From: Ectocarpus siliculosus
Lineage: Eukaryota > Sar > Phaeophyceae > Ectocarpales > Ectocarpaceae
Assembly (NCBI GenBank): GCA_000310025.1
Contig: FN649726.1
Span: forward strand, 62,001-126,000
Length of the DNA: 64,000 bases
Reading direction: 5' to 3'
In this document: positions 35,901 to 61,696 of the stretch, one piece after another
Numbering within the stretch: position 1 is the stretch's first letter
How the letters are laid out: every line of letters starts with the position of its first letter
Translations under genes and position numbers: made by a program
Notes under the pieces: generated by a model
Told to the model about the DNA's origin: nothing
What the model saw: the letters and a program-made list of their open reading frames with translations, nothing else
The model's database searches: none

Positions 35901-38070
35901 TACGCCCGGATGTGAAAAGAATGACCGCTTCGTTTTCCGGATCAGTGCCATGTTCCCCCTCGGTCGGCGAAATCACCTTATACTTCCCCGTTGGCGTGAA
36001 TATCGCCCCGAAGTGGTTGTGACCACTGCCGTCGTCCTCAATTTGTCCATCTGGCGTGTGCTCACTTCGACTTTCTCCCCCCATGTGTTCGGTGTGATAA
36101 CACTCGTGCGTCGGTGTGCAGAACAACTACAACATGCTCTCCCGCGCGGATGTGGAGCTGAGCAGCATGCCGGAGACTTGCTCGAGGGCGAACGCCGATG
36201 TCAGCTACCTCGCATACTCTCCGTTGGCCGGCGGGTATGTTGTTGTTGTCTACGTCGCTACGGTCGCTGTTGTGAATATGTTGCACTTTGCGACACCGTT
36301 CATTGGTATTCTACTGTTGTTGCCGAAGTCTGTGCTTAAGTTTCTTGCGTTGGCAGTCATTGACATCATTCGACTTCCTGTATACCTTGGCTACCCATGT
36401 GACACTTGTTGATGCTTGTTCACTCGGTGCTTTGGTTGAATGCAAAATCGGATAGTTGCGCTATTGTTGTTCACCGGAGCATCAAGTGGGGTCGTGTCAG
36501 CCCATGTGCCCATACTCTCAAAGGAAACGGGTGCGCATGACACGCGCCTGGTGGTATCTGCTTTCCGGGGATTCCCGGAACTCGTTGCCGCGGGGGGGTA
36601 CAGGCCGCAGAAGTGCGGTGGCACGCAATGCACCTCTGACAATGACGTAGGTGGATGTTGAAGCACCCTAGGCGATCGGGCCGCTGGGAACATGCATGTT
36701 TGTTCGCAATCACTCCCAAGCACACAGAAGTTCATGTTTATAAGCCTCCCCATCTGCTGGCCCGTTTTGCTGAAGAATACCCCGTGGTCAATGGTCTAAC
36801 CGCTATGGCGTGCAAAACATGAGTACGCCCCCCCTCCCCCCCCCCACCCGAACGCGATGCATGCGTGACTGTCCATGACGCTGGCTGCCCCCCCCCACAA
36901 CCCAGGGTATTGAGCGGCAAGTACTTGGATCCTGATGTGCCAGTCCCCGACGCCCGGCTGAACAAGTTCCCGGGGTACTATGCCCGCTACAGGACGCCCG
37001 AGTGCATCGAGTGCACAGCTAGATACGCCAAGATTGCCGCTGACGTGAGTGAGCCACCGACGTCTTCACCTTGGTGTTGTCGTGCAATGAGTCAACACAA
37101 CACACCACAGCTGTCGTAGTTGGTGATGTCGCTGCTGTTGTTGTGGTTTTGGTCAGTACTGTGTTCTTTTTTGCAGCTGCTGTGTTTACGTAGGTTGGTG
37201 GAATTGTTGTGGCCGCGAGGGTCGGTTTCTAGGTGGAGTATTCTTTGCCACGTGGCTGCATGTGTCAACGTATCGTGATGGAGTCGGTGTAGTTGATGAT
37301 GATGAAGTGGGGTTGTTGCATGATTTCGCGTTCACTCTTACCTTGCAACCCTTCCGCGTAAGGCCATATGGTTTTTCTTGGCGACTTTTGCTGCACAACA
37401 CACCCTCGTCTCTTGTGTGATTATTTCGTCGCGTTTGGAAGAGTTTCGAAACCAAGCAACGGCAGTAGCTGTGGCGATGTGCTCAGGTGTAATGTGTCTT
37501 CCGCCTTGTGTTCTTGCTTTCGAATGCCCCCGTGTTGTCCGTTCGGAACAGATCGGTCTCACCCCGGCGCAAATGGCCCTGGCTTGGGTCTACTCGCGCG
37601 AGTTCATCACGTCGACCATTGTGGGTGCGACGACCATCGAATCGCTGAGAGAGAACCTCCGGGCGCTGAACTGTCCCGTCACCGAGGAGGCCCACGAGAA
37701 GATCGTTGCGGTTCATGAAGAGTGAGTAATAGCACAGGGTGGCGGAAGTACCTCATTTGGTCTGTGATGTTGTTATTGTGCTTTGGGTGATGGTGTCAGG
37801 TGTTTTGCCCGAGCCAACAACGCAGACTAGTTTTTTTGCGTCGCCAACGAGCGCTACTTTTTGTTCGGTACACTTTTTCATTGTCGCAAAAATTATTGTT
37901 CGCCGAAATTCTTGGCAAATCTGTCCCTTCCCTGACACTGCTGTGGCACCAACTGTCGTTTCTTGTCTCGTTCGGGGAGCAGGTTCAGAGACCCCACCAA
38001 GACGAAGCGAGAGTTGCTGCCCAAGTTCGTCTTCAACAGCAGCAAGCTGCCGCCGCTAGAGAGAAATTGA
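29966..38070 (+). CDS. Tas-type aldo/keto reductase with organelle-targeting-like N-terminus, 11 exons
   Basis: Exons 29966-30126, 31754-31892, 32393-32509, 33214-33348, 33852-33911, 34755-34826, 35178-35276, 36122-36234, 36906-37044, 37552-37721 and 37983-38070 join with consistent phases to 430 aa. The mature region from residue 55 (YSRLGKSDLVVSKACLGTMT WGEQN) is collinear with bacterial Tas-like reductases. It keeps the AKR tetrad D101, Y106 (DAAEMYP), K139 (VVVATK) and H186 (IHWPDR), the late NADPH-contact region (VGATTIESLRENL) and LSGKYLDPD. AKRs reduce carbonyls with NADPH; the substrate is unknown. Exon 1 is separate, basic and hydroxylated (MRTAAACLGASLSLYAVPSR GF...) and ends in a serine run from an AGC repeat, so it is probably a plastid or mitochondrial targeting exon. 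All introns are GT-AG; several hold repeats (SINE-like at 33.9 kb, a non-LTR tail at 36.8 kb, a tandem duplication at 32.0 kb). The last exon gives a 28-residue C-terminal tail. Confidence 0.93.
30091..30123 (+). repeat. AGC trinucleotide repeat in reductase exon 1
   Basis: About ten AGC codons, one interrupted by AGT, encode a polyserine run at the end of the targeting exon, just before the donor at 30127. It is a likely length polymorphism outside the enzyme fold. Confidence 0.85.
32015..32266 (+). repeat. 145-bp-period tandem duplication inside reductase intron 2
   Basis: Two copies (about 32015-32121 and 32160-32266) of a segment containing GAGGAGAGTACTGACGCAAA and GGGCGGTTACAGCCCCTGG, separated by a short unrelated spacer. 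They differ at a handful of positions. The copies lie wholly inside the intron 31893-32392. Confidence 0.85.
33941..34475 (-). mobile_element. SINE-like dispersed element, copy 1 (in reductase intron 5)
   Basis: Collinear with 61697-62304 over about 540 bp, and with a 5'-truncated copy at 54674-54925. Read on the minus strand, it ends GTCAATGGTCTAACGACTAC, then GAGTACACCCCCC, an oligo-C tail. The same tail closes the non-LTR remnant at 53.2 kb. The other end carries GATGGCAAACACCGGGG. No protein is encoded. Size, oligo tail and shared 3' end suggest LINE-dependent retroposition. Confidence 0.65.
36779..36848 (+). mobile_element. Non-LTR retrotransposon 3' tail fragment (in reductase intron 8)
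   Basis: CGTGGTCAATGGTCTAACCG, followed by GAGTACG and a long C-run, matches the 3' end of the remnant at 53.21-53.27 kb in the same orientation. Only about 70 bp remain, as expected for extreme 5' truncation. Confidence 0.6.
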
Positions 38071-38851
38071 GCCCCTCGTTGAGACCAGGAGGAAGTCAGC
38101 ACGCAATATTTGCCCTTGTGATCGAGGCCTCGGAGCACCTTTTACAACGGAGGGGCGTGCTCGATGCTGGTGGTCGTGTGACCCCGCGTCTCGGTTTAGA
38201 CGGAGCACCGTTCCTTAAGAAGTTTCCCTTCCTCCACCTTGAGTGCTTTTTTCCCGATGGAGTCTTTCTTGACACCTGTTTCGCTGTGGCAGAGGGGTGC
38301 CTGGGGAGATTGTCGAGATGCCGAACGTCGTTGATCGGCGGGAGGAGGATCGCTCCTTTGTCTGATTGCGAAAGTGCCCGTTGTCTTGTGCACCATCGGA
38401 GTGTTCGGGCGTTCATTAGGTGGATGTGCCCGTGCAAGGCAAACCCAGCTCAGCAGTTGCCTTCCGTTGAGCCCAACTACTGTGAGGGGAGGGGGTATAA
38501 GTATGCCGATTGACGAATTATTCCGACATTATTGCTGCGTGCCCGCCCTGCTCTGGCATGGCCTTGTCGCCAGTCTGGAGAGTCGTCACATGTGCCACCA
38601 ACAATAGAGTTTTCTTGCCGCGAACCAGACTTGTGAGAGCCGGCGAGGCTTGAAAGACTTGGCCAGCATGACTTTGTTCTTGCCGCTGTATTTGAGGCCA
38701 AGATAGGCCGTAGCCGCTGCTGCTGCTTCAGGGTCCGCATGAACGTGCCTCACGTAGTTGCAACAGATTTTCGGAAATCTCAGCGTGAGACACTTGATCC
38801 GTGTCGTGTAGATCAGTGGGTGTGACAGCAGTGCATACTCTACAGCATCAG
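38071..38851. other. Reductase 3' flank and sulfotransferase A upstream region
   Basis: No gene recognised. The stretch before 38852 shares no visible similarity with the region upstream of the second sulfotransferase copy (52277 onward), so the two genes do not share a promoter. Confidence 0.5.
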
Positions 38852-41800
38852 ATGGTCAACTTGGTATCCCCGAGCGTCGCGGCCGTGCTGCTGGTCCTGT
38901 GTGCTAGGGCTTCACCAAGGGATGCGAAAAAAGTGACATTTGCAGAAGCGATAAACCTGTCGACTGTCGGAGATGAGCAGCAACAGGCGGAGGAGACACA
39001 AAATGCATCAACTGAGATTCCCAGTTTTGAACACGGTAAGAACCAGTGGTTGCCGCTGGCGTGTCGGCGATGATTGGCATTGGCTTGCTGTACCGACGTC
39101 GCAGAGCATGTAATTGTTTTAACCAGAACTTCCATGCATTGCGCCTGCCTACTACAGCCGCAGCACCTCAAATAAAAGGAGAGGGGGACCGTGCTCACCA
39201 CATCAGGTACATATCTGTCGTTTCCGAGCGTCACAGCGGCTTCACGTGGATGACTAGTTTTCTCTGGGAATACTTTCGAGACAAGGATGTCATGGTCACC
39301 CCAACGCTCTGCACATGGAAGGTTTGTTCCGACCCGTGTTCGTCCCTCCGACGATGATTGTCATACGGCAGTTGGCGTGCTTGTGACGTCGGGTTTGTCG
39401 TTGCCATGATGAGGCCATGTCAAGCTCTTTGTGGACGGCAGCAGCACCGGCAGCAGCAACGCGTGCTGCGTGAGTACGCCATCCGCGAAGAGGGAGAAGA
39501 CCAAATCGTTGGCAACTCTTGTTCCGTACGCGCGTCGACGCCTAATACTACAGCAGCCAACCTCGTCGGGTCCTCGCGAACGGCGACAAGGCGTGGTGAC
39601 ACCAACCAGAAGGGAATTTGTCTCGCAAGGGAGTCGAACTCGACACGCTCGGACAAAATTCTGATCGTCAAGCTGATTTAAGGCACCGCCAGATAACGGC
39701 ACCGTACACCATTTTATCCTTCCAAGTTTCGTCGCTGGGTTTGCCGACGGAACTATTGTACACGTTTCCGACAGGTTTTCCGGAAGATACTCTGTACCAA
39801 ATCACGAACTTGAACATCGGAGGATGGGCTTGTACAATGCGCTACTGATACACTCCTCGAGGTTTTGCCGCAGGATCTTCTTTGGTACAAGTGGCTTTGT
39901 CGTAGCATGATCTTCTTGACATGGCATTATTCTCGCGGAGGCGTTAGTACCTCCGCTTCGTCTCGTTTGTACTTGGGCTGTGTTTTCTTTTACGGCAAAC
40001 GCACCATTGGTAATGCCTAGGTCGACACCAAAACCAAACACGTTTTCACAAGCAACCCGGTAGAAGCTCGCGTGGTACGGGGGCAAGTAGCAGGGTGGCG
40101 GCACCCTCTTGAAACCCATTTTCCTCGCAGCCTCTGCGTGTGTATTCAGTTGTTGATATTCCCCGTCTCCGCACACACGTACACTCTTCTTGTTGTCGTT
40201 CAGCACTGGTTCCAGGATCGCATACACCAAGACGTCCAAGATGGCAAACGCCCCTGCCGAGGAAATCAACAGTGCCCTGCGTGCTTAGACACCGAACACA
40301 CCCTCGTGGTTGTCATGTGGCGGAACCCGTACGACTGGATCGGCGGGATGCATTCCAACCCGCACCATGCCAAGGTATCGAACAAGCGCAACTACAGACT
40401 TGGATGGGATGATGAATCGGTAGCTGGCCCATGAAGCAGAATGTATTGAGTTGGGATATTCAGAATGTTCTGTTCACTAAACAAGGACACACGCAGGGCC
40501 CGAGAACAATACCGCAGCCCGAAGACCGTGATAGAACCAGAAAATATCGACGTGTACTCTAGTCTTCGTACAGAACAGGCTGCCACTGAACAACTACCCG
40601 GCATGTGGTGCGGACTCAAAAACCGACAATATCTCTGCTCTTGAGGATCAAACCTTGAAAGAGAACCTGCAGCGGACTCGTGAAAAAGAGGCCGTGATAT
40701 CCACCCCCCTTGCTCTAACCGCGGGGGAGCTGCTCAGGCACATCGTGGAGTACAGGACCTGGAGCAGTTCATGACAATGCCGTGGATAATGGGCCCAGAG
40801 GTGAAGAAAGAGCCCGCCGTGTTCATTACCCAGACGTTGTCCATGGAAGTCCACCTCGTCATGTAAATCCGGCTGTTTCTTGTGGCTGGTGCTCTTGCCA
40901 AGGATCTGTCTATCTGTGTGATAATGTGTTGTTGTTGCGGTTGTTGCTATTGCCCTCGTGGTTGTCATCATCGTCGTCCTCGTCGTTTTTTTGTTTGTTT
41001 TTGCTGCGGCCGTGTTGTTGTGTCGGTGTGTGTTGCTGTTAGTTTTCCTACATTTTGGTCTAATTTCCCCTAACTTACAAAAGCTGTTGTTTGCAATGTC
41101 TACCCTGGGGTCTACGTGTAACTGTTCTTTGTTTGTATTATAGTGAGTTATCGCAAACGGTGCTCAACAACACGCTCGAGTAAGGTTGACTCGAAGCCCC
41201 GGCCATATTTTCCGCGTTATCCGCTCAGATATCCGGTTCGTTCATATTTGGAGCCCGCATGGGTTCACCACGGTTGTCGGAACATCCAACCGGTGAAGTC
41301 AACAACAACCGAATCGTCATGCTGTACCGCCTCCGTGAAAATGAAACAGAAAGAGCAGCGCGCGAGGAAAGACGCTTTGGTCAAGGCCGAGGAGGAGGTG
41401 AACTCTCGCGCGCGCCCCTCCGAGAACACTTCTCGTTATTGGTCCTAGACTATTCGGAACAGTGCCACGAATCGGGCCGTCTATTGAACCAACGATCCAA
41501 CGTCGTGGGGCCGCTCGCTGAGCGAATGGATGCGACATGGTGCCTTCATCGTGAGACGAAAAGAGGGGAGACGCAATGCATACATGGAATTCGTTTACAT
41601 CATTGGTCGGCGATCCTTGCTTCTGACCAAACTGCGGCGCCTTGTCGCGTTGCATCCCTTTCGTCGGGGTTCGTGCCTGTTGAACTCCTCCAGCTTCCGT
41701 GCATCGACAACTTCCTGCCGAACGAGGTGCTGCCGTGCAAGGAGAACGGCAGGTCATCCATCTACGAGCTAGACCGCGACGGACGCGCGTACGGAAACAT

Positions 41801-43352
41801 CTACGAACTGAGGAAGGTGAATGCCAAGCGCTACTGGTGTATCTGTAAGACACAACGTCGTTTCACGATGTTCTCGCTTGGTATCTTCGCGGTCCAGCTT
41901 AGGTTATGTTTAAGTCATTTTCTGCTCGGACCACCGATGGCTTTGATTCGGGTTTGTTTACCATTGTTTTGACCCCTCATCGTTGTTTCAGAATACCATA
42001 CACAGAGGATGCATGTTGCTATGTACTATCTAGGGTATCTTTTCCTTTTCGCTTGTTTTGGTACCCCTTGCTGCATGCGTGGGGTGGACTCAGGCCAAAA
42101 TCCTTGACTTCAACGCTGTCGAGACCTGGGTACCGTTCTACGAGAAGGTGGTGTACGAAGACATGCTTGTCGGGCCAGGGCTCAGGGATTGGCTCAGGTC
42201 GCTCGAGACAAAGTGAGCTTCACCCAGAACAAGGGAAACACGTATTCATTGCCGAGTTTCTCTTAGTATAGGAAGCGTCTGCTTGGTACCCCGAGAGCGA
42301 GAGAAAAGGCGCCGTACGTACGCCGTAAGATTTTCTCTGCTGGTGCTGCTGCCGGTGGGTCCGCCGGTGGTGCAAGCTGTAGACTATTGAGACCGCGTGG
42401 TGATATTTCATTGCTGTCGCCGAAGCCGACCCTCTGCACGGTGGGGTGCGGAGTTGGCTTCAGGAAAGCACTCCTTGTACAGTCGCATCGGATACCACGG
42501 AGCAGCGCGTTCCGCCGTACACATCAACGTCCCGTCCGACCATAGCTCATTGATATTGTCGCCGCTGGTTTCGCTTGTGCCCAGGTATGGCCTCGTTGGG
42601 AACTACATGGATGTTCCGGACAACGTTCTTCAGACAAACATGGCACGGTTGTGGAGCAACATGTACTACACGAACAGGTGAGTGAGAAGGTTCAACCCCC
42701 TTTTCCATCCTTCGGAGATTCTCTAGGGGCACATGGACTATGTATGTAGGTGCAGGTGCATCTTGCGGCTCATAGTGATGTAGGGAGTCATTCTTCAAAA
42801 CCAAGGCGGACAAACGGAAGTAGGCGTGGAACGGTCCTTGGCAGACGCGATACCTACACTGCGGGTGTATGGTGGCGGTGGCGCCTTTTCGAACATAGGC
42901 GTTGTGTGAACACAACTTGGGGTGCAGTCCGTCAATCATATCCTGCAAAGGCGTACATCAAAATGGTTTACTCAATCAAATCTCTCAGCGGTCCGGATCG
43001 TCTCCTCGCGCCCCTACGCCTAGATGCGAAAGACAAAATGGCCGGCTCAAGATGCAACGAAGTGATCGCTCTTGTGTTTACTCTCTACGGGACCAGTGAC
43101 ATCCAGTTCGCCTCGTCGTGTTGTTATTCCATCTCACGATGCTCTCCTCTTACCTGCCTCGTCTGGACAATACCGGCCACAAACAAACCGTGATGAAGCG
43201 AGCATTGCGCGCCGAACTGCACTATGGGCGGTGTGACGGGAGCCACAGCTGTGGAAGCCCTGCACCAGATGTGGGACGAGGAGCTAGAGAGTGGGATCGG
43301 GTACAACAAAGTTGATGTGCAGGGCAAAGCGGAGAAGAACCGCGATGTATGA
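38852..43352 (+). CDS. Sulfotransferase-family protein, copy A, 8 exons
   Basis: Exons 38852-39035, 39164-39321, 40204-40374, 40738-40800, 41694-41816, 42094-42212, 42585-42677 and 43199-43352 join in phase to 354 aa. An N-terminal hydrophobic stretch (SVAAVLLVLCARA) suggests a signal peptide or Golgi anchor. RYISVVSERHSGFTW (residues 76-90) sits where sulfotransferases have the 5'-phosphosulfate loop. VVVMWRNPYDWIGGM (149-163) matches the 3'-phosphate-binding strand with R-x-P-x-D. FMTMPWIMGPE and EVLPCKEN...SIYELDRDG, then DWLRSLETKYGL and VPDNVLQ, fit family order. Such enzymes move sulfate from PAPS to carbohydrate or other acceptors; in a brown alga cell-wall sulfated fucans are a natural guess, not shown. 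An extra exon in 41.15-41.69 kb cannot be excluded: a frame continuous with exon 5 stays open upstream in both copies. GT-AG introns throughout. Confidence 0.85.
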
Positions 43353-43672
43353 CACTCTTCGCCAAGACATCATCTAGGCATAGGCAGGTGTAAAGCGGGG
43401 GCGGTGGGATTCTGTTCTAATAGGGGCAGACGGGTGCTTCGCAGGTCCGATCGTTTTTTTTGTGTGTTATTGCCATTGGTTCTGGGAGCAGTTTACTGAA
43501 TCGTATCACTTGACGTTCTCCGTATTACGGTGGTCACACAGACGGTAGTTCGTGGAAGATATTTTTTTTAGTGTGTGTCTCCCACCATACTTAGCGGTTA
43601 TTGTCTTCGAGTTTTAGAGGGAGAAAAGGGTTCAGCGATCCCTTTCCTCTTGCTCCTTGTTGTGTACCGTAT
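38852..43672 (+). repeat. Left arm of a ~4.8-kb inverted duplication
   Basis: The segment is repeated in reverse complement at 47390-52276, including every exon and most intron sequence. Similarity begins at the start codon and fades in the 3' flank near GGGTTCAGCGATCC...CCTCTT (about 43650). Exons are nearly identical and introns carry small indels. Confidence 0.88.
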
Positions 43673-45330
43673 CATGCGTCCCCTTCCACCACATATTTGC
43701 GAATTTTTACTCACGAGAGAGTTTATAGTCTAGCAACAAGCTCCTGCATAGGCTTTTGAGCTTACTCACTAGATCAGGGATGGGTGAACGTAACCTGTTC
43801 AGGGGGGATCACCGCTGTTTCGGGTAAGGTTGAAGACATTTGGTATTCTACAGATCGTAGCTGTGCAAGTTTCTGCCGTCGTAGCAATCGCAAACAACAC
43901 CGCAGCCGTTGATGGCCTTCCTATACCTGGTTCAACGGATGGACACGAAGCGTTCTGTGACAAGACACACAATGGCAACACTTTTTCCTTTGAATGGTGA
44001 GGGCACGGGACCATCACGGGTAGCACACGAGCTGTCAGTGCGTGTCATAGGGGCGCACCAGCGAGACGTGCCAGGACGTACTGGAAGCCCATGAGGGTCC
44101 ATCAAGTCGTCTCTCAGGTCGAACCCCTATGACGTTCCGCGAAACGAGGGTCTCCTACAGGCCCGCATGGTCGCCGTCGGGCGGCTTGCTGGCTTTTCTT
44201 TGGGTTCCATGGCAGAAACTGAAGCACCAGAGGGGCGTACAAAGAGGGAAACATCACCGAACAGGGACACTCCAAATCAAAACCACACCTTCCACCAATA
44301 TTTCCTAGCCCTGAAGAGCTTACGTTAACGGCGAAGTGAAACCAGGGGGCAGCTAGTTCACCTTTGCAGCGCTGGGCGACACGCTTCGGCGGCTGGCCTG
44401 TCCATGCCCCGATGGACCTGGAAAACTGAAGGGTCGACGCGCTGCGCTTTCCCCCTAGAGTCGTGAGAATTTGGAAAGAAGGACGAGAGCTCGCACCTAT
44501 CCACCATCTTCGCGGTTTGGACCACTCCTTCAGTGAAGGTACAAACACCGTGTTCCCGCGCCCAATCGGCACACGTGTAGCGTTCGACGGACTCATGAAA
44601 ATTCAAACTCGGCGGGATCGAGGACCATGGCATCCACTGCGGGCGTTGTCGTAGCACGTGAAGCAGCCGGTTGAGACACACCCAACAGAGACCCCATGGG
44701 GGCCTCAGTAACCGTCTCTGGCGGCGCTATCGGCACCGTTGGGACAGGTTCGACGGCAGGCTCAGGTGTCATAACGGCTGGCGGCGCTCGTGTTTGCCGA
44801 CGATAAGTACTTGCAGCGGCAGCTGCATACGGAACGCGTGGGGGAATGGACAAGTCGGGACCGAAACCGTAGTTCACATCAGGCTGAGGTTTTTTCAGCA
44901 GCAGCGGTTGTTCTGCGACGCGCGGGTAAAAATCAGTTCCGAGGGATCAAGACGATGCGGTTGCAACGGAGAGGTCGAGTGTGGCCGCAATGAGTTGGTG
45001 GCATCCAAACGATCAGATTGGGAGCCGGTGGCGACAGTTGCGGTCGTAGGAGACATGACAGCGGGCAACCGAGAGTTTTCGTCCGTGGCCTGTGTGTCAT
45101 GGACAGGGAGCGCAAAATGCAAGTTGTAGCCGTGTTGGGCCGCGCAGACAGTCCGGAAACCGTGGCGGTGGACCTATAAAACAGTCTCAGCGGAGACGCA
45201 GCAGGAGACACCGAAGACTGGCTCACCGGCACAGCGTCCTGCTATATATGGGTTGCAGCAGAGATGTCCCCAGGCGCAGCAAGTACGGAGTGTTCGGTGC
45301 AAGACCTTGCACGAGCGTCCGCAAGGTGTC

Positions 45331-45915
45331 TCAAAGGTCCTCCCGCGTTGACGGCAGGAAACACACCATGACAGCAGGAAACACACGAACGACGAATTCT
45401 CCTTCAGGAGCATCAAGGTCGTCAATCCTCATCCGAGGCCTGTGTTTGCGAAAATCCGCAAAATCGTCGGAAGTGAGGGGTAGCCCACACAAAGCCGTTC
45501 CCTGGCTCGGGGGCGCCAGCCCACTCAAACCAATGCCAGGCGTGGTTTGTCCGGGTGATGCGTGACCTGTCCCTCGGATCAGATACACACCAACGTCCTC
45601 GGGGGACGTCAAACTACTGTTACCGTTCATGTCGGCGTCAGTAGGCTCGACCGGCAGGCGAGACAGCATGTCAACACTACCATCGGAGGCACCTAATCGG
45701 TATTCCAACGTGTAGCTGTAGGCCTCAAGCAACTCAAACCAGCGTTGGACGCGGGGGTTGTGCTCGCTGATTTTTGACAAACTTCCCAGCGCCTTGTTGT
45801 CGGAATAGAAGCGGAAGTGTGTGCCACGAAGGTACTCGCGGAGACGATTGATTGCCCACACAACGGCCCCTGCTTCGAGGTCGAGAGCGGTCCAGTTTCG
45901 TTCAGCGTCGAGCAC
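45331..45915 (-). pseudogene. Ty3/gypsy RNase H domain fragment
   Basis: LDAERNWTALDLEAGAVVWA, then FRFYSDNKALGSL (catalytic-region DNKAL) and NPRVQRWFELLEAYSYTLEY, followed by GASDGSVDMLSRLP, are the conserved steps of gypsy RNase H and its exit motif. The frame is open for 194 codons but has no RT ahead of it; its first codon is GTG. It is dead as a polyprotein. Confidence 0.85.
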
Positions 45916-46034
45916 AACTCTGCCAATGAAAACGGTCGGCCGTATGGCAACTCATCCGCGGGTCGGCGGTTCTGTCCACATCGTCGTCGGTAGAACCCAA
46001 AATAGGTCCAGGCACAGAGCACTTCGTCGCCAAA

Positions 46035-47058
46035 CTATTGTTCTAAATGCTCTACCGGCACGCGCATCAGCGGGGTGGCAGCAGCGAGAAAGTCTCCTGG
46101 CTCAAGTTCTACGGCACCCGCGAGTGGCACAAGCTGACGTCCGTCGGAGACAAAGATTTCTTCGTTCGACGAAACATCAGGAAACACATCGACAAGGTAT
46201 TGACCGGTCAATGCCGGTGTACCGTTGGAACGCACCAAGTTGACCTCAATCATTTGGTGGTCTTCTGATAAGGAGGTACCGTCGGCCCTGCATAACGGAG
46301 CTGGAATTGGTTCGCCGGGGCTGTGAAATCAGGCACATACGCGACCGCACCAGAAACGTCCTGGTGGGCAAGCGAATATTTACCAAGAACGCACTCGCCC
46401 AGTTGCCTCGGAGGCAGCATAAGGTACGTGCGAATGCCAAATCGCATGAAACTATCGCGCCCTCAAAGGATGGAAAACTGCATGGTGTTTGCAGGGACTA
46501 AGTGCGCCCAACCGGCAAGAGAAGCCGAAGGCGTTTCACCGCGGAAAAACTGCACACTCAGACGGACTGTGTCGGACGTCTGAAGAGACTCGGATTTACC
46601 AAAACCTCCCGAAGAACGTGCGTTACCGTGCGAGATGCAAGCCTCTGAGATTGCTCCCATGGCTGTGACGTTACCATGTGATTTGGCCGACCCAGCGTGG
46701 ATTTTGGCTCGAGTCCTAAATGACGCGTATCAACACCACCTACGAGGCAAGGACCATGCTCAGCGAGCCACGGCACACGGCTGTCGTCTTCATACTCAGC
46801 GGACGTAACCGTGAGGGCTTCAGTGCTGTGATCAGGTGGAACATTCGCTGATTCGATGCAGTAACCTGAGGACGGGGCGACCTCCGCGGCTGCAGCAATC
46901 GAAATTCGCTCTAGCGCTTCAGGGGTAACCTCATGGGTTGTACTCCGGAGCTTTGCGTCTAGCGAAACTCGTGGTGGAAGTGTCGGCGTCGGCGCGTGCT
47001 CTCGGAGGAGGTTCGGACAACCTTCCGGCTTTTGCCGAGCAGATGGGAGCCTCGCCAC
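46035..47058 (-). pseudogene. Ty3/gypsy Gag-protease-like region with frameshifts
   Basis: Three minus-strand frames follow one another (47058-46558, 46660-46463 with onward sequence, 46253-46035). They include FSILLGRDS-like and MRFGIRTYLMLPP stretches and IEVNLVRSNGTPALTGQYLV, typical of the protease-to-RT linker in gypsy polyproteins, but frame changes near 46.45 and 46.25 kb break them. A stop lies just before the RNase H part. Confidence 0.6.
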
Positions 47059-47389
47059 AAAGCTCTAGCCACTAGAAGGCATGACCCAGTTTTGAGACGA
47101 GACAGGGCCTGTACGCCTGCACCAGATGGTTACCTTAAATTCTCGCATGGGAACATGTCTAAGCTGACCCATGCCTTATTTACACCTGCCCTAACTTCAA
47201 CCAAACTTACACTGGTACCATGCAGTCCCAACCATCGCACCAGAACCGCAGAGCCACACAAACCTCAAGACGATTGAGTATTATTTCCGGGCGGGAGCAC
47301 GCAATGTATTGTGTATTTCTCTTGAGAATTGTTTTTCTCATGACAGAAAACTCGATCATATGACTCCCTGTGCAAAGTGAGCGTTAGTC

Positions 47390-50300
47390 GCGCATGTGTG
47401 TGGTACACAATACGGAGTAAGAGGAAATGGATCGCTGAACCCTTCTCCCACAATACAAGTATATCAAAGACAACAACCGCTAAATAAGGTGGGGCACACA
47501 CTCTTCTATGTAAAAACTTCCACATTATACCGTCTGTGTGACCCCGGTTTTGCGGAGAACGTCAAGTGTTCAATTCAGTAGACTGGTGCCAGAACCAATG
47601 GAAATGGCAGACATAAAAAACCCGGATCGGACATCCGGAGTTGGGGTGGACAGCTTACCGCAAGCACGATCGCGACGTACCAAGCACCCGTCTGCCCCTT
47701 TAGAACAGAACCCCGCCGCCCCCGCTTTACACCTGCCTATGCCGAGACGATGTCCAAAGAGTATCATTCATCACGATTCTTCTCCGCTTTGCCCTGCACA
47801 TCAACTTTGTGGTACCCGATCCCACTCTCTAGCTCCTCGTCCCACATCTGGTGCAGGGCTTCCACAGCTGTGGCTCCCGTCACACCGCCCATAGTGCAGT
47901 TCGGCGCGCAATGCTCGCTTCACCACGGTTTGTTTGTGGCCGGTATTGTCCAGACGAGGCAGGTAAGAGGAGAGCATCGTGAGATGGAATAACAACACGA
48001 CGAGGCGAACTGGATGTCACTGGTCCCGTAGAGAGTAAACACAAGAGCGATCACTTCGTTGCATCTTGAGCCGGCCATTTTGTCTTTCGCATCTAGGCGT
48101 AGGGGCGCGAGGAGACGATCCGGACCGCTGAGAGGTTTGATTGAGTAAACCATTTTGATGCACGCCTTTGCAGGATATGATTGACGGACTGCACCCCAAG
48201 TTGTGTTCACACAACGCCTATGTTCGAAAAGGCGCCACCGCCACCATACACCCGCAGTGTAGGTATCGCGTCTGCCAAGGACCGTTCCACGCCTACTTCC
48301 GTTTGTCCGCCTTGGTTTTGAAGAATGACTCCCTACATCACTATGAGCCGCAAGATGCACCTGCACCTACATACATGGTCCATGTGCCCCTAGAGAATCT
48401 CCGAAGGATGGAAAAGGGGGTTGAACCCTCTCACTCACCTGTTCGTGTAGTACATGTTCCTCCACAACCGTGCCATGTTTGTCTGAAGAACATTGTCCGG
48501 AACATCCATGTAGTTCCCAACGAGGCCATACCTGGGCACAAGCGAAACCACAGCGGCGACAATATCAATGAGCTATGGTCGGACGGGACGTTGATGTGTA
48601 CGGCGGAACGCGCTGCTCCGTGGTATCCGATGCGACTGTACAAGGAGTGCTTTCCTGAAGCCAACTCCGCACCCCACCGGGCAGAGGGTCGGCTTCGGCG
48701 ACAGCAATGAAATATCACCACGCGGTCTCAATAGTCTACAGCTTGCACCACCGGCGGACCCACCGGCAGCAGCACCAGGAGAGAAAATCTCATAGCGTAC
48801 GTACGGCGCCTTTTCTCTCGCTCTCGGGGTACCAAGCAGACGCTTCCTATACTCAGAGCAACTCGGCAATGAATACGTGTTTCCCTTGTTCTGGGTGAAG
48901 CTCACTTTGTCTCGAGCGACCTGAGCCAATCCCTGAGCCCTGGCCCGACAAGCATGTCTTCGTACACCACCTTCTCGTAGAACGGTACCCAGGTCTCGAC
49001 AGCGTTGAAGTCAAGGATTTTGGCCTGAGTCCACCCCGCGCATGTAGCAAGGGTACGAGGACACAAAACAATTTAGCGAAAAAGAAAAGGTGCTAGTCTG
49101 TGTGTATTCCGAAACAACGATAAGGGGCTGCCACAACGGTAACCAGACCCGCATCAAAGCCATCGGTGGTCCGAGCAGAAAATAGCGAAACATAACCTAA
49201 ACTGGACCGCGAAGATACCAAGCGAGAACATCGTGAAACGACGTTGTGTCGAACAGATACACCAGTAGCGCTTGGCATTCACCTTCCTCAGTTCGTAGAT
49301 GTTTCCGTACGCGCGTCCGTCGCGGTCTAGCTCGTAGATAGACGACCTGTCGTTCTCCTTGCATGGCAGCACCTCGTTCGGCAGGAAGTTGTCGATGCAC
49401 GGAAGCTGGAGGAGTTCAACAGGCACGAACCCCGACGAAAGGGATGCAACGCGACAAGAGCGCCGCAGTTTGGTCAGAAGCAAGGGTCGCCGACCGATGA
49501 TGTAAACACAATCTATGTATGCATTGTGTCTCCCTCTTTTCGTCTCACGATGAAGGCACCATGTCGCATCTATTCCCTCGGCGAGCGGCCCCACGGCGTT
49601 GGATCGTTGGTTCAATAGACGGCCCGATTCGTCGTACTGTTTCGAATAGTCTAGGACCAATAACGAGAAGTGTTCTCGGAGGGGCGCGCGCGAGAGTTCA
49701 CCTCCTCCTCGGCCTTGGCCAAAGCGTCTTTCCTCGCGCGCTGCTCTTTCTGTTTCATTTTCACGGAGGCGGTACAGCATGACGATTCGGTTGTTGTTGA
49801 CTTCACCGGTTGGATGTTCCGACAACCGTGGTGAACCCATGCGGACTCCAAATATGAACGAACTGGATACATAAACGGAACACGCGGGAAATATGGCCGG
49901 GGCTTCGAGTCAACCTTACTCGAGCGTATTGTTGAGCACCGTTTGCGATAACTCACGACAAACGAAGAACAGTTACACGGAGACCCCAGGTAGACATTGC
50001 AAACAACAGTTTTGAAAGTTGGGGGAAATTAGACCAAAATGTAGGAAAACTAACAGCAACGACACACCGACACAATAACACGGCCGCAGCAAAAACAAAC
50101 AAAAAAACGACGAGGACGACGATGATGACAACCACGAGGGCAATAGCAACAACCGCAACAACGACACATTATCACACAGAGAGACAAATCCTTGGCAAGA
50201 GCACCAGCCACAAGAAACAGCCGGATTTGCATGACGAGGTGGACTTCCATGGACAACGTCTGGGCAATGAACACGGCGGGCGCTTTCTTCACCTCTGGGC

Positions 50301-52276
50301 CCATTATCCACGGCATTGTCATGAACTGCTCCAGGTCCTGTACTCCACGATGTGCCTGAGCAGCTCCCCCGCGGTTAGAGCAAGGGGGGTGGACATCACG
50401 GCCTCTTTTTCACGAGTCCGCTGCAGGTTCTCTTTCAAGGTTTGATCCTCGAGAGCACTCGAGATGTTGTAGGTTTTTGAGTCCGCACCAAGTATCGGGT
50501 AGTCGTTCATTTGCAGCCTGTTCTGTACGAAGACTAGAGTACACGTCGATACTTTCTGATTCTAACACGGTCTTCGGGCTGCGGTATTGTTCTCGGGCCC
50601 TGCGTGTGTCCTTGTTTAGTGAACAGAACATTCTGAATATCCCAACTCAATACATTCTGCTTCATGGGCCAGCTACCGATTCATCATCCCATCCAAGTCT
50701 GTAGTTGCGCTTGTTCGATACCTTGGCATGGTGCGGGTTGGAATGCATCCCGCTGATCCAGTCGTACGGGTTCCGCCACATGACAACCACGAGGGTGTGT
50801 TCGGTGTCTAAGCACGCAGGGCACTGTTGATTTCCTCGGCAGGGGCGTTTACCATCTTGGACGTCTTGGTGTATGCGATCTTGAAACCAGTGCTGGACGG
50901 CAACCAACAAGCATAGTGCACGTGTGTGCGGAGACGGGGAATATCAACAACTGGATACACACGCAGAGGCTGCGAGGAAAATGGGTTTCAAGAGGGTGCC
51001 GCCACCCTGCTACTTGCCCCCGTACCACGCGAGCTTCTACCGGGTTGCTTGTGAAAACGTGTTTGGTTTTGGTGTCGACCTAGGCATTACCATTGGCGTT
51101 TGCCTCACAAGGAAACGCAGCTCAAGTCAAAACGAAACGAGGGGGAGGTAGTCACGCCTCCGGGAAAATGATACCATGTCAAGAAGATCCTGCAGCTTAA
51201 CCCCGAGGATTCTATCAGTGCGCATTGTACAAGCCCACCCTCCGACGTTCAAGTTTGTGATTTGGTTCCGAGTACTTTCCGGAAAACCTGTCGGAAACAC
51301 TCCCGAACGGGCTAGAGTACACGTGCCGTCCCTTCGGCAAACCCGACGACGAAACGTGGAATCGCAACATGGTGTACGGTGCCGTTATCTGGTGGTGCCT
51401 AATCGGCTTGCCGATTAGATTAGAATTTTATGCGAGCGTGTCGAGTTCGACTCCCTTGCGAGACAAATTCTCTTCTTGTTGGTGTCACCACGCCTTGTCG
51501 CCGTTGGCGAGGACCAGACGAGGTTGCTTGCTGTAGTATTAGGCGCCGATGCGCATACGGAACAAGAGTTGCCGACAAGCTGGTTTTCTCTCTCTCTGCG
51601 AAGGTGTGCTCACGTGCTGCGTGAGCACGCTGCTCCTGGAGCTGCCGCTGTCCATAAAGATTTCAACATGGCCTCATCATGGCAACGGTAAGCCCGACGT
51701 CACAAGCACGCCAACTGCCGTATGACAAAAATCGTCGGAGAGACGCACGCGGGACAGAACTAACCTTCCATGTGCAGAGCGTTGGGGTGACCATGACATC
51801 CTTGTCTCGAAAGTATTCCCGGAGAAACCCAGTGAACCACCTGGAGCCGCTGTGACGCTCGGCAACGACAGAGATGTACCTGATGTGGTGAGCACCTTCC
51901 CCCTCTCCTTTTATTTGAGGTGCTGCGGCTGTAGTAGGCAGGCGCAATGCATGGAAGCAGGCGTAATGCATGGAAGTTCTGGTTGAAAACATTTATGGAG
52001 TGTAGCGCTTACGTATGTACATTCTGTGGGACGTCGGTACCACAAGCCCATGCCGAATCATCGCCTACACCCCAGCGGCAACTACTGGTTCTTACCGTGT
52101 TCAAAACTGGGAACCCCAATGGATGTGTTTGGTGCCTCCTCCGCCGGTTGCTGCTCTTCTCCGACAGTCGACATGATTATTGCTGCTGCAACTGTCACTT
52201 TCGCATCTCTTGGTGAAGAACTACCACACAGGGCCAGCAGCACGGCCACGATGCTCCGGGATACCAAGTTGACCAT
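47390..52276 (-). repeat. Right arm of the ~4.8-kb inverted duplication
   Basis: Reverse complement of 38852-43672. The 3' flank similarity continues past the stop codon (47764) to about 47390; the 5' limit coincides with the ATG at 52276. Small indels distinguish the arms, for example one codon in exon 1 and differences in intron 2. Confidence 0.88.
47764..52276 (-). CDS. Sulfotransferase-family protein, copy B, 8 exons
   Basis: Exons (minus) 52276-52096, 51922-51765, 50892-50722, 50355-50293, 49405-49283, 49024-48906, 48531-48439 and 47917-47764 are the same lengths and phases as copy A except one codon less in exon 1; total 353 aa with no stop. Exons 4 and 6 encode identical protein to copy A, exon 3 differs by one residue (G to S in DWISGM), exon 5 by one (G to D) and exon 7 by one (S to R). 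Exon 2 differs at eight positions, mostly in the predicted PAPS loop: ERHSGSRWFTGFLREYF against ERHSGFTWMTSFLWEYF. The C-terminus ends KNRDE instead of KNRDV. Both copies look intact, so this is not an obvious pseudogene. Its upstream DNA is unrelated to that of copy A. Confidence 0.85.
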
Positions 52277-52795
52277 CCTCACGCTCGTTGCCTCTAGGTA
52301 GCACCTATATCGCTCTTCTCACATATATGTAGCTGAGTGGTTTTTTCGTTGGGGAAAAGTCAGCGAAAAACAAATACCGAATTGTGAAAATATAGTATGG
52401 ATGTACGTCGTACGTACACGTTGTAATATAGGATCTTGAATTGTGGCCGAAAGACGAAGGGGGTGTAGTTACCCCGAGTGTGTGTGCCCCCGTAACGGCT
52501 CCTCTACAGTGGAAGGTGCGGGATTCTCTTTTCTATCGACACGACGCTGGCGTTGTAACAGACATCTCATATTTTGTGAATGTCAATTAAATGTGTTGCT
52601 GCCGTATGAGGGACTGCGTGGTATTGAAATGTGAGCTAGGTGAAGACGATCAGAGATACTGCAGATGTTGGTTTTCTCATAAAATGTAACAACCTAGACT
52701 CCTTTGCGTCTATTCAAACAAAACCCAAGAGAAGGAAATCAAAGCATATTTCATTGTACACCAGACAAGACGGATGCAGGGACAAAGCTTAAGGT
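52277..52795. other. Upstream region of sulfotransferase B
   Basis: No gene seen. AT-richer than the arm; it should hold the promoter of the minus-strand copy B. Confidence 0.45.
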
Positions 52796-53270
52796 CAAAT
52801 TCAGAACCGGGGACATTGCATTGGCCTTCGAGAACGTAGACGAAGATTTACAGTAGGAAGGGCACGATTAAGACGAAAAATAATAAAATGTGATTGCGGC
52901 TCCGAGTGCGAAGACCTTGTTCATGTAACGTTGCGGAGTGCTCGTTGTACAAGAAGGAGAGGGAAGTGAACATGACTGAGCGGGGAAAAGTAGAGGGAAG
53001 ATACAGGGAGATGTTTGAGGCATTGAATAGCCAGGAGAAGAAGGTAGCTGTACTGGGGCATAGGAAGTGGGTTGAAAAGGCGGGAAGTGACATCGATAGG
53101 ATAGATAGACTAGGGACGACACTGTTGAGCCACCTTTTTCGCAAAGTAGGAAGAAACGATTGGCCATCGGTGATCGGTCCTGTGGGAACAGTGCTGAGTC
53201 CTCTCGACGACGCGTGGTCAATGGTCTAACCGCTTGTAAAAGTAAGAGTACGCCCCCCCCCCCCCCCCCC
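52796..53270 (+). mobile_element. Non-LTR (LINE-type) retrotransposon 3' end, frameshifted
   Basis: Across frame changes one reads KFRTGDIAL, LRERRRRFT, a zinc-knuckle-like CDCGSECEDLVHVTLR and SLYKKEREVNMTERGKVEGR, then VAVLGHRKWVEKAGSDIDR IDRLGTTLLSHLFRK. This is the pattern found after the reverse transcriptase of LINE-type elements. It ends GTGGTCAATGGTCTAACCGC and an oligo-C tail (53251-53270). No RT or endonuclease remains, so the copy is truncated at its 5' end. Confidence 0.65.
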
Positions 53271-54361
53271 CAACGCCATACAGGTTCCTTAAAAATCGAG
53301 CCCATACAAGTATAAAGCCTATTTGAAGGGAGCACTTTTCATGCGCGGGGGTAGTACAATCCACGTAGCCCTGGGCGACCTTGCCTGTACCGCAGCCGAC
53401 GGCACCGTAGCAGAGGTTGGGAGGAGGTTTACTGACAGGGTTGGGGTTAGGGAGGAGGAGGAGGGGAGGGAGGGAGGAAAGGGGAGGGAAGGTGAAGGTA
53501 CTCGAGGCGAAAGCGCTCGAAGAAGAGGCTGTTTAGTCTTGTTGAGGGAGGTGGAGGGGCTTGGGGAATAAAACGTACAACGCACGACAAACTGCAATTG
53601 TGTACGGGTGTTGCACATGGAGAAGGTGATGCCACCACCGTAGGCTCATCGCCAGCCCCTCTTCCGTATTTTCCGGGCTTGAGTAAGCATGGATTGATGA
53701 TGTGCCATTTGTTTCTGGTGTGTCGTTTGTTGGTGATATTTCGACATATTCGTCCAAGGTCAAATGCCGTGGTGGACTTGTTGCAAAAGCTTCGAGAAGT
53801 TCTGAGCTTTGCAGCTTGGGGGTTTGTCCCAAGCTGTTATGGGGTTTGAATGTGTAGGAATGTACCAACGGTAGTGCGGGCCCAGAGGAACGTGCGGGAG
53901 ATGTAACTCCCGATTGAAGGATAAACAGGGGACAGGACCTTTGTAGCCCCTGTTAGAGGGAGCTGGTCTGCCCCCACATGCTCAGTCTACCACAGAGAGC
54001 AAGAAATCAGCATGCACTGCTATCCAAAGAGAGAGATAGAGATGAATCAACAAGTGAGTCTTCACCAAGGAAGGGTCTTCAGGGATTGCGACGCGTGTCT
54101 ATACCATTGCAAAGCACTATACTTCAAGACTCCAAAACCAACTGCAAGTGTCCCCAGCCCATCACAGCTATTATACGAAGTAGCAATTATGTACATAAAT
54201 TGTCGTCAAACTTATCAAACTACTCTTCTATCAAGGTCCTTTGTGCACGTTTCGTAAACACGAGCACACACAAGCACACACAAGCACACGCAATTGGGAA
54301 AGCAAGAAAGTCTGCACAAAAGTGTACCGTGACAAAATAAACTCTTTTCGCATCCCTCCGG
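53271..54361. other. No supported gene
   Basis: A purine-rich GGGAGG stretch lies at 53440-53500. A minus-strand frame of about 110 codons (53868-53533) is open but has no motif I recognise. It may be decayed element sequence. Confidence 0.4.
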
Positions 54362-54433
54362 TGGGGGGGGGGGGGGTGTACTCATAGTCGTGCATGCCGT
54401 AGTCGTTAGACCATTGACCTCGTATCCCTACAA
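54362..54433 (-). repeat. SINE-like element end, cut by assembly gap
   Basis: A G-run followed by TACTCATAGTCGTGCATGCC and GTTAGACCATTGACC, the same terminal segment as at 33.94, 54.67 and 61.70 kb. Sequence stops at the gap. Confidence 0.75.
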
Positions 54434-54533
54434 NNNNNNNNNNNNNNNNNNNNNNNNNNNNNNNNNNNNNNNNNNNNNNNNNNNNNNNNNNNNNNNNNNN
54501 NNNNNNNNNNNNNNNNNNNNNNNNNNNNNNNNN
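54434..54533. other. Assembly gap (100 N)
   Basis: Exactly 100 undetermined bases, the usual placeholder size, so the true gap length is unknown. The next ~135 bp (54534-54670) are exaggerated homopolymer runs such as A12, C8 and G/C ladders that look like poor-quality read ends rather than genuine DNA. Confidence 0.95.
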
Positions 54534-54673
54534 TCTTTTTTTTATAAAGGCCTTTTGGCCCCTTTTGGAAAAACGGGGCCCCCCCAGCCCCCCACAACCC
54601 CCCCAATTTGGAAAAAAAAAAAATTCCCCCAAAAAGTTTCCCGGAAAAAAAAAACTTTTTTTCCCTCCCCCCC

Positions 54674-54925
54674 GGGGGGGGGGGGGGGGGGGTACTCATA
54701 GTCGTGCATCCCGTAGTCGTTAGACCATTGACCTCGTATCCCTACAAAGCCGGGACGGAGCACGCCGGGTTCTCCCCGGGCCAGGCTCTCACATCACCAA
54801 GCGCGAAGCGCCGTGAGGTATTCGGCGAGTCGCATAAAAGGTGTGCTGCATCCTGCTAAGGGTGTTCGGCATATTGTGCATACTTCCTTGCCTACGGATG
54901 ACAGCTGCGTATGACTTTAATTTTT
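54674..54925 (-). mobile_element. SINE-like dispersed element, truncated copy
   Basis: Matches 33941-34190 and 61697-61940 (tail end, GGACGGAGCACGCCGGGTTC, CGAAGCGCCGTGAGGTATTC, CATCCTGCTAA) and breaks off at GCGTATGACT. Minus-strand orientation by its oligo-C tail. A second copy of the tail just across the gap suggests the gap separates two copies, or one misassembled copy. Confidence 0.7.
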
Positions 54926-57900
54926 TGTATTCTCCGGTGGGGGGGGGGGGGAGGGGGGGAGGGGGGGTTAGGTGTGTGGGATAATTCTCTTTGTGCTTGC
55001 ATGACCCACAAATGCCAGACCTCGTCCCCCCAACAAACAATTGAAAGAAAAAATTGATATGCATGTAAAAACACACACAAATACAGAAAAAACAAAATTC
55101 TAGATGTACAAGTGGGGTAGTTCACGGAGGCCCAGTGGGGTAGACTAGTTGCCATGCACTTGGGTTTCTCTTCGTCTACTCCTCGCAATTGTTGCGGGAC
55201 GTCAGCGATTGGTGATTGTGCACGAGGAGTAGAAAGTCGAGAGGACGGCCACAAAAGAGGCCACCCGCTTGCATCCTCTACCGCAGAAGAGCTACTAATG
55301 CTGTAATACTGTATTTTGGGCCCTTTAAATTTTGACAACCGTTGGAGTGCCATGCCCACCAACGTCGTCCTGAAAAGTTGTTTGGTGTATGGAGAGGTCA
55401 CACACGCGCACATGACCCTATGACCATGGGCTTACACAGCAATACTGCCCAACGTAACACTCACAAGTTGCCTAAGACGTGTTGGGCAACTTATGTTGGG
55501 CAACTTCATGTTTTCCACACATACATCTAGCAGGGCATCAATGCGGATACATTGGAACGCTGTGTTTTAGGACTCTCCCGTTCACCATATGAAGCTGTGT
55601 CATCGAGTCAACGGACATTTTGCACGAGCCGGACGTTACAGCTAGGCATGTTGTATCCTCCGCGACGTTATTGCCCAAAAGTCTCGCCGTACCTTTGTCC
55701 GCCCCCCGGCTGACGTGTTTTCTTCGCTTGGCAGCGACGTTGTAAGGCACGCCGATCGCCCGTGAGTGGGGTTCCTAACGCCAGGTATCAAAGGAGGGGG
55801 ACAAGCTGTCCGTCGTCATGCAGTGTGGCCTAGCTCATACTGCCGCGCCAATGAGTGAGTGAGTGCCCTTCAACCGGAACTGTATACATATATACTGAAC
55901 AACAGAGTATTATCTCCTTTTGGAGGGGCACTACAAGAACAAAACGGCTGAAGACCCTAACCCGAACCCGAGCCCCCAAGCCCACACGATACATACATGC
56001 GTGCTAGGTTCGCGCTGGGTGGCTATAAGTTCTGGTTGTTGATGCTGTACCGGTGGCTAGTTCTACAGTAGGTTGATATGCCAGTGGCGAAGTTCTATGC
56101 ATGGATTGAAGTTCTCACGGTGGGCACTTCGTGAGCAGTCCATGGGCAGAGTTTGCATACTATGATAAGGAAATGTTCATGGGAAGTCCATGGAAGTCCA
56201 TGGGCCGTTTGGTGGAAGTCCATGGTAGTCCATGGAATTCCATGAAATATTCCATGAAAAAGTACAAACAGTAGTAGTGCAGATGACGATATATCTGCCT
56301 CTTCGCGATTTCTTCCGAAATCTGGATTCGTTTCAAATCCGAGATTACGCACACACATGCGCAGAGATTCCTGATTAGTATACACTCCGATCTCAACACG
56401 ATGAAAGCACTTGTTGGAAAAGAACCCTCCTTTCTTTGCCGCCGCACCGTACATTGCTTGTAGATTACTTCTTTTCCGCGACGCAGGATGTGAGACACCA
56501 AAAGAAACTGCATGAAAAGTACGATGCTGGCGCCGCGGAGGGAAGATGATGTTCCGGACGGTCGTGTGCGCCGGTTCTCAATAGTGCGGGGATGGACACT
56601 TGTGACGCACAAACACAAGTGTCCGGAGTACACATCCCTATGATGGACACTTGGATATTACGATATTACCCACATGTGCCCGGAGGGGGGTTTCCCGATA
56701 GATGCAACCGTATCTCGGGTTAATGATGGAAACCAACGGATTAAATCCCATTGGTTACCATTCCCCGCGCGATGATGAAACGGTTCCTCCGAATGACGGC
56801 TTGCAGGTACCGCATGCCGTCAGAGTGACCTTTCTTTGTGTCCGGAAATTGGGCACGAAATCTTTGTGAACGAACCCGACCGGAGCGCTATTATTGACCT
56901 GATATCCCAACTGTCAGTGATGACCACACGCCTGCATGCATGCCTGACCGGATGATGGAGTACCGGAGGAGTTGGAACCGCATGCTAGTCTAAAGGGGGT
57001 AGTCTACTGTACCGCTGCTTGCCCGCTCGTGGTGTTGATGATGGAGCGCTTGGAATATCTACAGTCGATTTTAGCAGAGACGGTAGCTAGTGATCTGCGC
57101 AGGTTAGAGTGTATTTAGGATATCGTAGACTGGCCTTGTCTCTGGAACAATAACTATTCTGCAACGGCTCTGCTCATTCCTGCTCAAGGCGTCAGCCGCT
57201 TTTCGGGGTACAACAGCAGTAGTAATCCCGTGTACGCGGGGTCACGTCTCGCGTTGAAGTGTAGCGGATTGTGGATTTCAACCAATGAAAATCACACTGA
57301 AAATATCACGTGATCAGTGGGTCAAACGGGCTTACCACGACTGACTATACTGAGCATGTCGTTCCGAAAAAATCCATGTCATCGGTCCGTGCCAGTATCT
57401 CCTGTTGGTGACACCAAGGTCGGCATCATTGCGTACCACGTTACTACACGAACGAGTCGTGCTCGCATTCTCTTCACGCGTACATCAACACCGCGTGAGC
57501 ACGATGAAAAAGAAACCTGTCATACCGACTACTAGCTGTGGTCACGCCAACCTACTGCGCTGTGTAGATCGACCCACACGACCACGTCAATTTCTTCAAT
57601 CTGTACTGCGCCCGCCTCTACGACGCGGTTGAATGGCAACGCACTTCAACCGGAATCTGGCCGCCCGACCCATTCGGGGGCGGTGGGCCAATCGTTCCCC
57701 TATGTACTGTAGCAGCAGTCAATATTATTTTCCACTGCCAGCATCATGAGATTTTTCAACGGCAAGGAAGCATGCAAAGGCGATGTGTACTGCGATGTTG
57801 GAAGCATGCTGTAGACTAGGGGTGCAGTGCAAAAGCCGTGTCACTAGTGAAAGAGTGTGGCGCGGCAGCTGAGGGACCGTCTGCTGTGAAGCGAGTGTGT

Positions 57901-60632: not shown

Positions 60633-61696
60633 AGTGTTATGGAGGAACAGAGAAATAAAAGAGGGCCTGGCTTCGGGTACTCACAGTTGTTGTGTGATCT
60701 CTTGTCACTATTTAGTTGCTCCTTTACAAAAGGTCGTGAGCTTCCCCATGGGGTGAAAAAATTCCAAATTATCTGCGGGTGAAATATATAGCTGAAAAGG
60801 CTCTTCTTGAGAGTGTACCAAAGTTCGACGTTGGCACCGTTGACGAGGGAAAGGGACGGCTGGACCCCTCTCGCGATAAAAACGAAATTCAGCACACACC
60901 GCAGGAGGAAGGTGGTGCACGAGAAAAAAAAAAAAATCCTGGTGTTTACCCCCTCCTGTGCGTCCCTGGATGGTTGTAGTTGTACGAAAAGGTACACTGA
61001 AAAGTGTAGCTAGTACTCTACGTACACTGAAGAGAGTAGTACTCGTCTCACCACGAAAACTGGGGGAACTGTAGCCATCAAATATAGGACGAAAAAAATA
61101 CAAAAAATACGCTTCCGCACCGGTATCGGTTTAAGGCATCCGGTGCGATCAACGGTACAAAACCCGCGTTGGAGAATAAGTTTGCATGCTTCCGCAAGGT
61201 ACCGGTACCCTCCGAGTCACGATGTGGCGAACGGCGGTGGAGGTGGTAGGTATCGATTGGGGCGCCATTCCCAAAGGGCGCAGGGGTGGGTGATATCGTG
61301 AACAACAAGTTTGCTGCATTGGTGAGCGGTCTTAGTGGTGGTGCGTCCCTGGGCATCCGTGGGTGGGAAAGAGCGTGCGGAGGCTTTCCTGGCACCTTTC
61401 CGCGGCATTTCCAAGCGCTTGCACCACTGCATGTCGAAGTTTCGTGCCGCGTTTTCTGCCAAGTACGAAACGGCGCTGGAGGATACTATGTCGTAGCGGT
61501 GGCCGTGGGCGAGGTTTCGACAAATTGCGGGAGGTTCTCCACGCTCGTCCCCCGTTGGCGATTTTGCCCAATGAATTTCCCGAGCATTGAGAAGACATCA
61601 TTTCCCTACACAAAGCGGGCTGCCGACTAACTCACCAGGGTACACCAGCAGGCGCTTATGGCTTCTGTGACGGGGAGCACGGTTTTGCGGGGAGGC

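Follow-up and report, generated by a model that had tools for sequence, protein, structure and literature searches.

Inverted gene pair and its surroundings

The window (the whole stretch of 64,000 nucleotides of Ectocarpus siliculosus DNA analysed here) contains two predicted eight-exon genes, A and B, which lie tail to tail in the two arms of an inverted duplication, next to an aldo/keto-reductase gene. The features of the locus are as follows:

33232-37722, + strand: aldo/keto-reductase gene, span of six exon matches (PF00248, E 4.4e-41)
38851-43668, + strand: arm A, inverted match to 52277-47402, apparently the copy in the newer position
38852-43352, + strand: gene A, 8 exons, 354 aa, splice sites predicted by comparison
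38852-39035, 39164-39321, 40204-40374, 40738-40800, 41694-41816, 42094-42212, 42585-42677, 43199-43352, + strand: exons of gene A
43669-47401, no strand: spacer between the arms, from self-comparison and genome search
44551-47062, - strand: Ty3/gypsy-like retrotransposon fragment in the spacer, internally deleted, 84-88% identical to many copies
47402-52277, - strand: arm B, apparently the copy in the ancestral position, with a 5′ flank in common with paralogue C and convergent with the reductase gene
47764-52276, - strand: gene B, 8 exons, 353 aa, splice sites predicted by comparison
52276-52096, 51922-51765, 50892-50722, 50355-50293, 49405-49283, 49024-48906, 48531-48439, 47917-47764, - strand: exons of gene B

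Comparison of the window with itself revealed four inverted matches between the arms, the weakest of them with an E-value of 6e-31:

39905-43454 with 51193-47666: 94.7% identity
39129-39882 with 51957-51181: 84.8% identity
38851-39112 with 52277-52018: 86.3% identity
43445-43668 with 47632-47402: 77.8% identity

Over the whole alignment 4418 of 4730 aligned bases (93.4%) are identical, and the longest exact tracts comprise 215 and 211 bp. The arms are of common origin and opposite orientation, which confirms the tail-to-tail inverted duplication, comprising the entire coding region and its introns, that had been proposed from a reading of the sequence alone. The span of 38852-52276 given there is correct for the two ATGs, but at their inner limits the arms continue for about 0.3 kb beyond the stop codons. 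At the outer limits, the base-level alignment of both arms begins with the G immediately before the ATG, i.e., one base upstream, in agreement with the claim that the similarity starts at the start codon on both sides. Aligned with each other, the 150-bp sequences preceding the two genes score 8.0, which equals the shuffle mean (8.0) and was reached by 320 of 500 shuffles; the upstream DNA of the two copies is therefore unrelated, as had been stated.

The predicted exons of A and B are located at corresponding positions with GT donors and AG acceptors, and the frames are complete, A having 354 and B 353 codons ahead of the stop, so that the eight in-frame exons described for each copy could be verified. 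A protein search of the genome, for which a draft protein containing some predicted intron served as query, resulted in 24 exon matches at four loci (28 of 28 candidates scored). Seven of these belong to A, seven to B, six to a paralogue C (C30:1.303-1.307 Mb) and four to a paralogue D (C1:874-878 kb). For D, seven of the eight exons (the later ones) were found at corresponding positions and exon 1 was not found at the D locus. Paralogue C has an ATA where the ATG is expected, and the length of its exon 5 is off by one base, causing a frame shift; for this reason, C looks like a pseudogene. The stretch around it (L001, C30:1300500-1310000) contains this copy with a reductase relic at the 3′ end. 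Among contigs of bacteria, archaea and viruses in public collections, 17 and 10 stretches fit the peptide pattern, none of which was confirmed as a relative.

The name sulfotransferase, used in the sequence-only reading, rests on the 5′-phosphosulphate loop, the 3′-phosphate motif RNPxD and YExxL, which we take to be the ordered landmarks of PAPS-dependent sulfotransferases. In A, B and D, ERHSG[ST]TW is followed by WRNPYDW and then by YEDML, as expected, save for loop changes in A and B. The family name found no counterpart in the databases searched: no Pfam family matched the spliced proteins of A, B and D at E-values up to 10, no NCBIfam family matched the four members of alignment A1, and a PDB search with the family profile yielded no chain. 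Two PDB matches of the draft protein (E 0.38 and 1.7) were taken as chance. PF00685 does match other loci in the same genome, and in an hhalign comparison with pieces of six such loci only the loop (E 0.13) or only YEDML (E 0.067) was aligned, neither of them significantly. The family is probably sulfotransferase-like, with an activity that we infer from the motifs.

The presumed phosphate-binding loop reads ERHSGSTW in C, ERHSGTTW in D, ERHSGFTW in A and ERHSGSRW in B. A and B thus each carry their own substitution in a part of the loop that is otherwise S/T-S/T; at another PF00685-matching locus of the same genome the loop is KSGNFW. The description of both copies as intact is confirmed for the complete reading frames, but not in the functional sense, in view of the loop replacement in each copy.

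The retrotransposon fragment in the spacer includes the RNase H of a reverse transcriptase at 45331-45951 (PF17917, E 4.4e-17). About 1.3 kb that is present between the matching parts in other copies is absent here (40 of 121 candidates scored), and for the remaining spacer nothing but the self-match was found among the same number of scored candidates. Several further repeats were observed in the window. A high-copy repeat of about 500 bp (52772-53271; 84-85% identical to many copies, 40 of 1957 candidates scored) is located about 0.5 kb upstream of B, and some 50 bp of the same family apparently lie near 36800, within the reductase gene. A dispersed element of about 540 bp occurs at 33939-34477, 54682-54926 and 61694-62243 (83-91% alike) as well as at C30:1316986-1317530. 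The sequences 54318-54433 and 54632-54747, around the gap at 54434-54533, are 88% alike, and short direct duplications of 88-97% similarity are found at 5801-5943, 1839-1963 and 32003-32268.

Ancestral position and origin of the second copy

The assignment of parent and copy relies on the 5′ flanks of the genes and on the neighbouring reductase gene, for which three further features are needed:

37182-37599, + strand: part of the reductase gene with a relic directly 3′ of C, counterpart at C30:1308104-1308524 on the opposite strand
37723-38850, + strand: putative new 5′ flank of A, between reductase and ATG, at most 1.13 kb
52277-52335, - strand: proximal 5′ sequence of B in common with paralogue C, from the upstream alignment

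Upstream of the ATG, B and C have about 60 bp in common (score 18, reached by none of 500 shuffles). The corresponding comparison of A with C is weak, its score being reached by 26 of 500 shuffles. Since B and C share this sequence and A convincingly matches neither of them, it is probably A that has lost its ancestral 5′ flank.

The second line of evidence is a decayed neighbour. The window sequence 37599-37182 and C30:1308104-1308524, on opposite strands, gave a local alignment score of 79, whereas none of 200 shuffles scored above 19 (their maximum), and the relic at C30 begins 75 bp beyond the end of the gene-copy homology in C. In a genome search with 36800-37800, C30 was the sole other location of this part of the reductase (40 of 192 candidates scored). 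In the reverse search, starting from C, the window did not appear among the scored candidates (40 of 475), which were mostly repeats adjoining the relic. As a protein, the relic reaches an E-value of 0.049 with one stop codon, and it is not among the nine candidates of a genome-wide protein search; because it is short, weak as a protein and unlisted in that search, the synteny of reductase and C rests on the DNA match. At the D locus, no reductase relic was found by tblastn (all matches with E of 1.9 or above), and the 3′ flank common to C and D was discarded as a dispersed repeat.

The alignment of 37599-37182 just 3′ of C suggests that C descends from a locus with a reductase gene and a sulfotransferase-like gene in convergent orientation, which is the orientation of the reductase to B. 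Together, the flanks indicate that B occupies the ancestral place and that A is the newer copy, inverted between reductase and B. From the reductase part to the ATG of A there are about 1.1-1.25 kb, whereas the counterpart gap in C is only 75 bp, so that either an extra deletion in C or an insertion here is required. It is also conceivable that A was already present in the ancestor of C and was lost there later; A-C and B-C are the larger distances, which argues against this, but the ages are uncertain because A and B have converted each other.

Quite probably, the locus thus started from the convergent order of reductase and B, A was inserted in inverted orientation between them, and partial gene conversion followed. 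B would be the original gene still in place. A second copy, reaching from the ATG to just beyond the 3′ end, would have been set inverted between it and the reductase, giving the order reductase, A, B with only B on the reverse strand and the ATG of A abutting DNA formerly downstream of the reductase. A switch onto the opposite strand as template, in the course of replication or of break repair, would yield this product. That the break falls exactly at the ATG is a coincidence that counts against this history.

The 5′ flank of A might alternatively have been replaced after an originally longer duplication, by a deletion or insertion at the ATG. The junction may be of any age, and most of the 1.1 kb that separates the reductase from A is single copy, both of which would suit such a replacement. 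We regard it as unlikely, as no trace of the sequence upstream of B is left beside A: a comparison of 52251-56000 with 28001-38880 (E < 0.001) resulted only in scattered repeat pieces beside 25 bp at the ATG. A genome search with 37800-38850 found this flank to be single copy apart from a weak 72% match of 38616-38731. This concerns the sequence 38616-38739, which is 72% like C492:387183-387297 over about 116 bp. An older link of the flank to C492 was dropped, since the stretch retrieved from there has no match to the sulfotransferase-like protein.

Under the preferred history, with A as the inserted copy, the DNA upstream of A is what formerly lay downstream of the reductase, and it is a candidate promoter source at most. 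It had been proposed that one copy captured a new promoter or that the duplication broke at the 5′ end. The new upstream DNA of A and the break at the ATG stand, and the capture itself is at present a conjecture.

Divergence classes and gene conversion between the arms

The divergence of A and B is unevenly distributed over the arms, which were subdivided as follows:

38852-39994, + strand: outer block of arm A with exons 1-2, unhomogenised, from A-B non-coding divergence
39995-43441, + strand: core of arm A, apparently homogenised with arm B, from the best-segment test and divergence
40584-40633, 41204-41253, 41554-41604, 41929-42056, + strand: divergent islands inside the core, from 50-site windows

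The non-coding divergence between A and B amounts to 14.9% in the outer block (116 of 778 sites, 38852-40012), 3.7% in the core (96 of 2579, 40013-43340) and 16.8% at the inner end (52 of 310, 43341-43668); the last rate has no outgroup control, because C has no measurable counterpart of the inner end. In non-coding DNA, C is 28.1% distant from A and 27.5% from B within the outer block; for the core the two values are 29.0% and 28.8%. In the best segment (39995-43441), A and B agree at 752 of 859 variable sites, compared with 175 of 314 outside, with a log-likelihood gain of 63.9 (maximum of 200 permutations: 13.3). The longest concordant run of 60 sites was not reached in 2000 permutations, but with a maximum of 59 it is marginal on its own. 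The core itself is patchy, with a variance-to-mean ratio of 3.14 over 51 windows of 50 non-coding sites each (maximum 1.65 in 2000 permutations): five of the windows, spread over four regions, show 12-20% difference among others close to zero.

This mosaic fits several conversion tracts. The data indicate patchy gene conversion across exons 3-8, with exons 1-2 staying private to each copy, so that the conversion to which the arms had been said to be prone is borne out by the divergence and the permutation tests. The arms would first have diverged by about 15% and then have been overwritten repeatedly by ectopic gene conversion, over a stretch that starts within intron 2, in its second part, and runs through to the 3′ end (39995-43441 in A). 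Separate histories would have been retained by exons 1-2, the inner ends and the 5′ flanks of both copies.

A history of two duplications, the older one surviving in the outer and inner ends and a later copying event replacing the core in one step, would account for the single sharp block at 39995-43441. The several tracts demanded by the mosaic core make this quite improbable. It is very improbable that two alleles or a chimeric read were joined as an inverted pair in the assembly. A gap of 100 N lies 2.2 kb outside arm B with a direct duplication on its flanks, but it is the sole N run in the window (54434-54533) and none falls inside the arms. Divergence between the arms reaches 15-17%, numerous separate indels set them apart, their outer flanks are unrelated, and the spacer is unlike either. 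A single recent duplication with a core merely more constrained than the outer block is hardly credible: the core contains the majority of exons, and constraint is apparent in exons 3-8, but the non-coding core is as far from C as the outer block (29% vs. 28%) and A and B are fourfold closer there, and this flat distance to C rejects constraint as the cause. Judged by outgroup C and the mosaic, the core is a block of identity raised beyond constraint.

The coding changes between A and B differ between the two regions. Exons 3-8 differ by 5 non-synonymous and 9 synonymous changes (dN/dS 0.14, Fisher p 0.0004), which indicates purifying selection. In exons 1-2 there are 28.5 non-synonymous and 5.5 synonymous changes; the dN/dS of 1.63 is not different from 1 (p 0.52), and positive selection was rejected as unsupported. 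Each gene would thus consist of a shared body and a private head, i.e., its own 5′ flank, N-terminal segment and presumed 5′-phosphate (donor-binding) loop.

A more far-reaching idea, to which we attach little probability, is that of a two-headed gene, in which a converted common body (exons 3-8) carries unconstrained private heads, A is expressed by read-through from the reductase, and double-stranded RNA arises from the 3′ halves. A may be transcribed by such read-through, and even spliced to the CAG just upstream of its ATG. The facing, near-identical 3′ halves could in addition yield double-stranded RNA acting on the family.

Relation to known systems

The A/B pair is real and well resolved, and it represents a known kind of event, an ordinary gene duplication with partial concerted evolution; no general idea is altered by it. 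Its value lies in the outgroup paralogue C and the decayed neighbour gene, which reveal the parent, the landing site of the copy and the reach of conversion. The locus separates the conversion-protected exons 3-8 from a free 5′ flank and exons 1-2. As conversion spares the latter, promoter change and divergence of the protein head can be studied on one body.

Inverted duplications arising via fold-back or replication template switching (PMC10622511, PMC4689423) likewise give an adjacent inverted copy, whereas the A/B event is ancient and diverged, with junctions too old for reading microhomology. Some duplicates have left the 5′ region of the parent behind and adjoin new upstream DNA (PMC5460883, PMC3449122). 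The new copy A resembles them in that it is without the upstream DNA of its parent and has new upstream DNA, as a candidate for promoter capture would. It differs from them in its whole coding region and inverted orientation. In the brown algal sulfotransferase families (PMC7291590), genes are intron-rich and clusters of neighbouring duplicates are reported in Saccharina japonica; A and B are likewise intron-rich neighbours. The duplicates described there are tandem and the word "inverted" is absent from the text, whereas A and B are inverted. Inverted duplicates homogenised by ectopic gene conversion are described for chromosome palindromes (PMC3403216) and in Drosophila (PMC3924832). The A/B locus is small and autosome-like and lies in a gene-dense contig, its arms are only partly homogenised and its spacer carries a retrotransposon relic, but it shares with these duplicates two inverted copies with patchy high identity bounded by older divergence.
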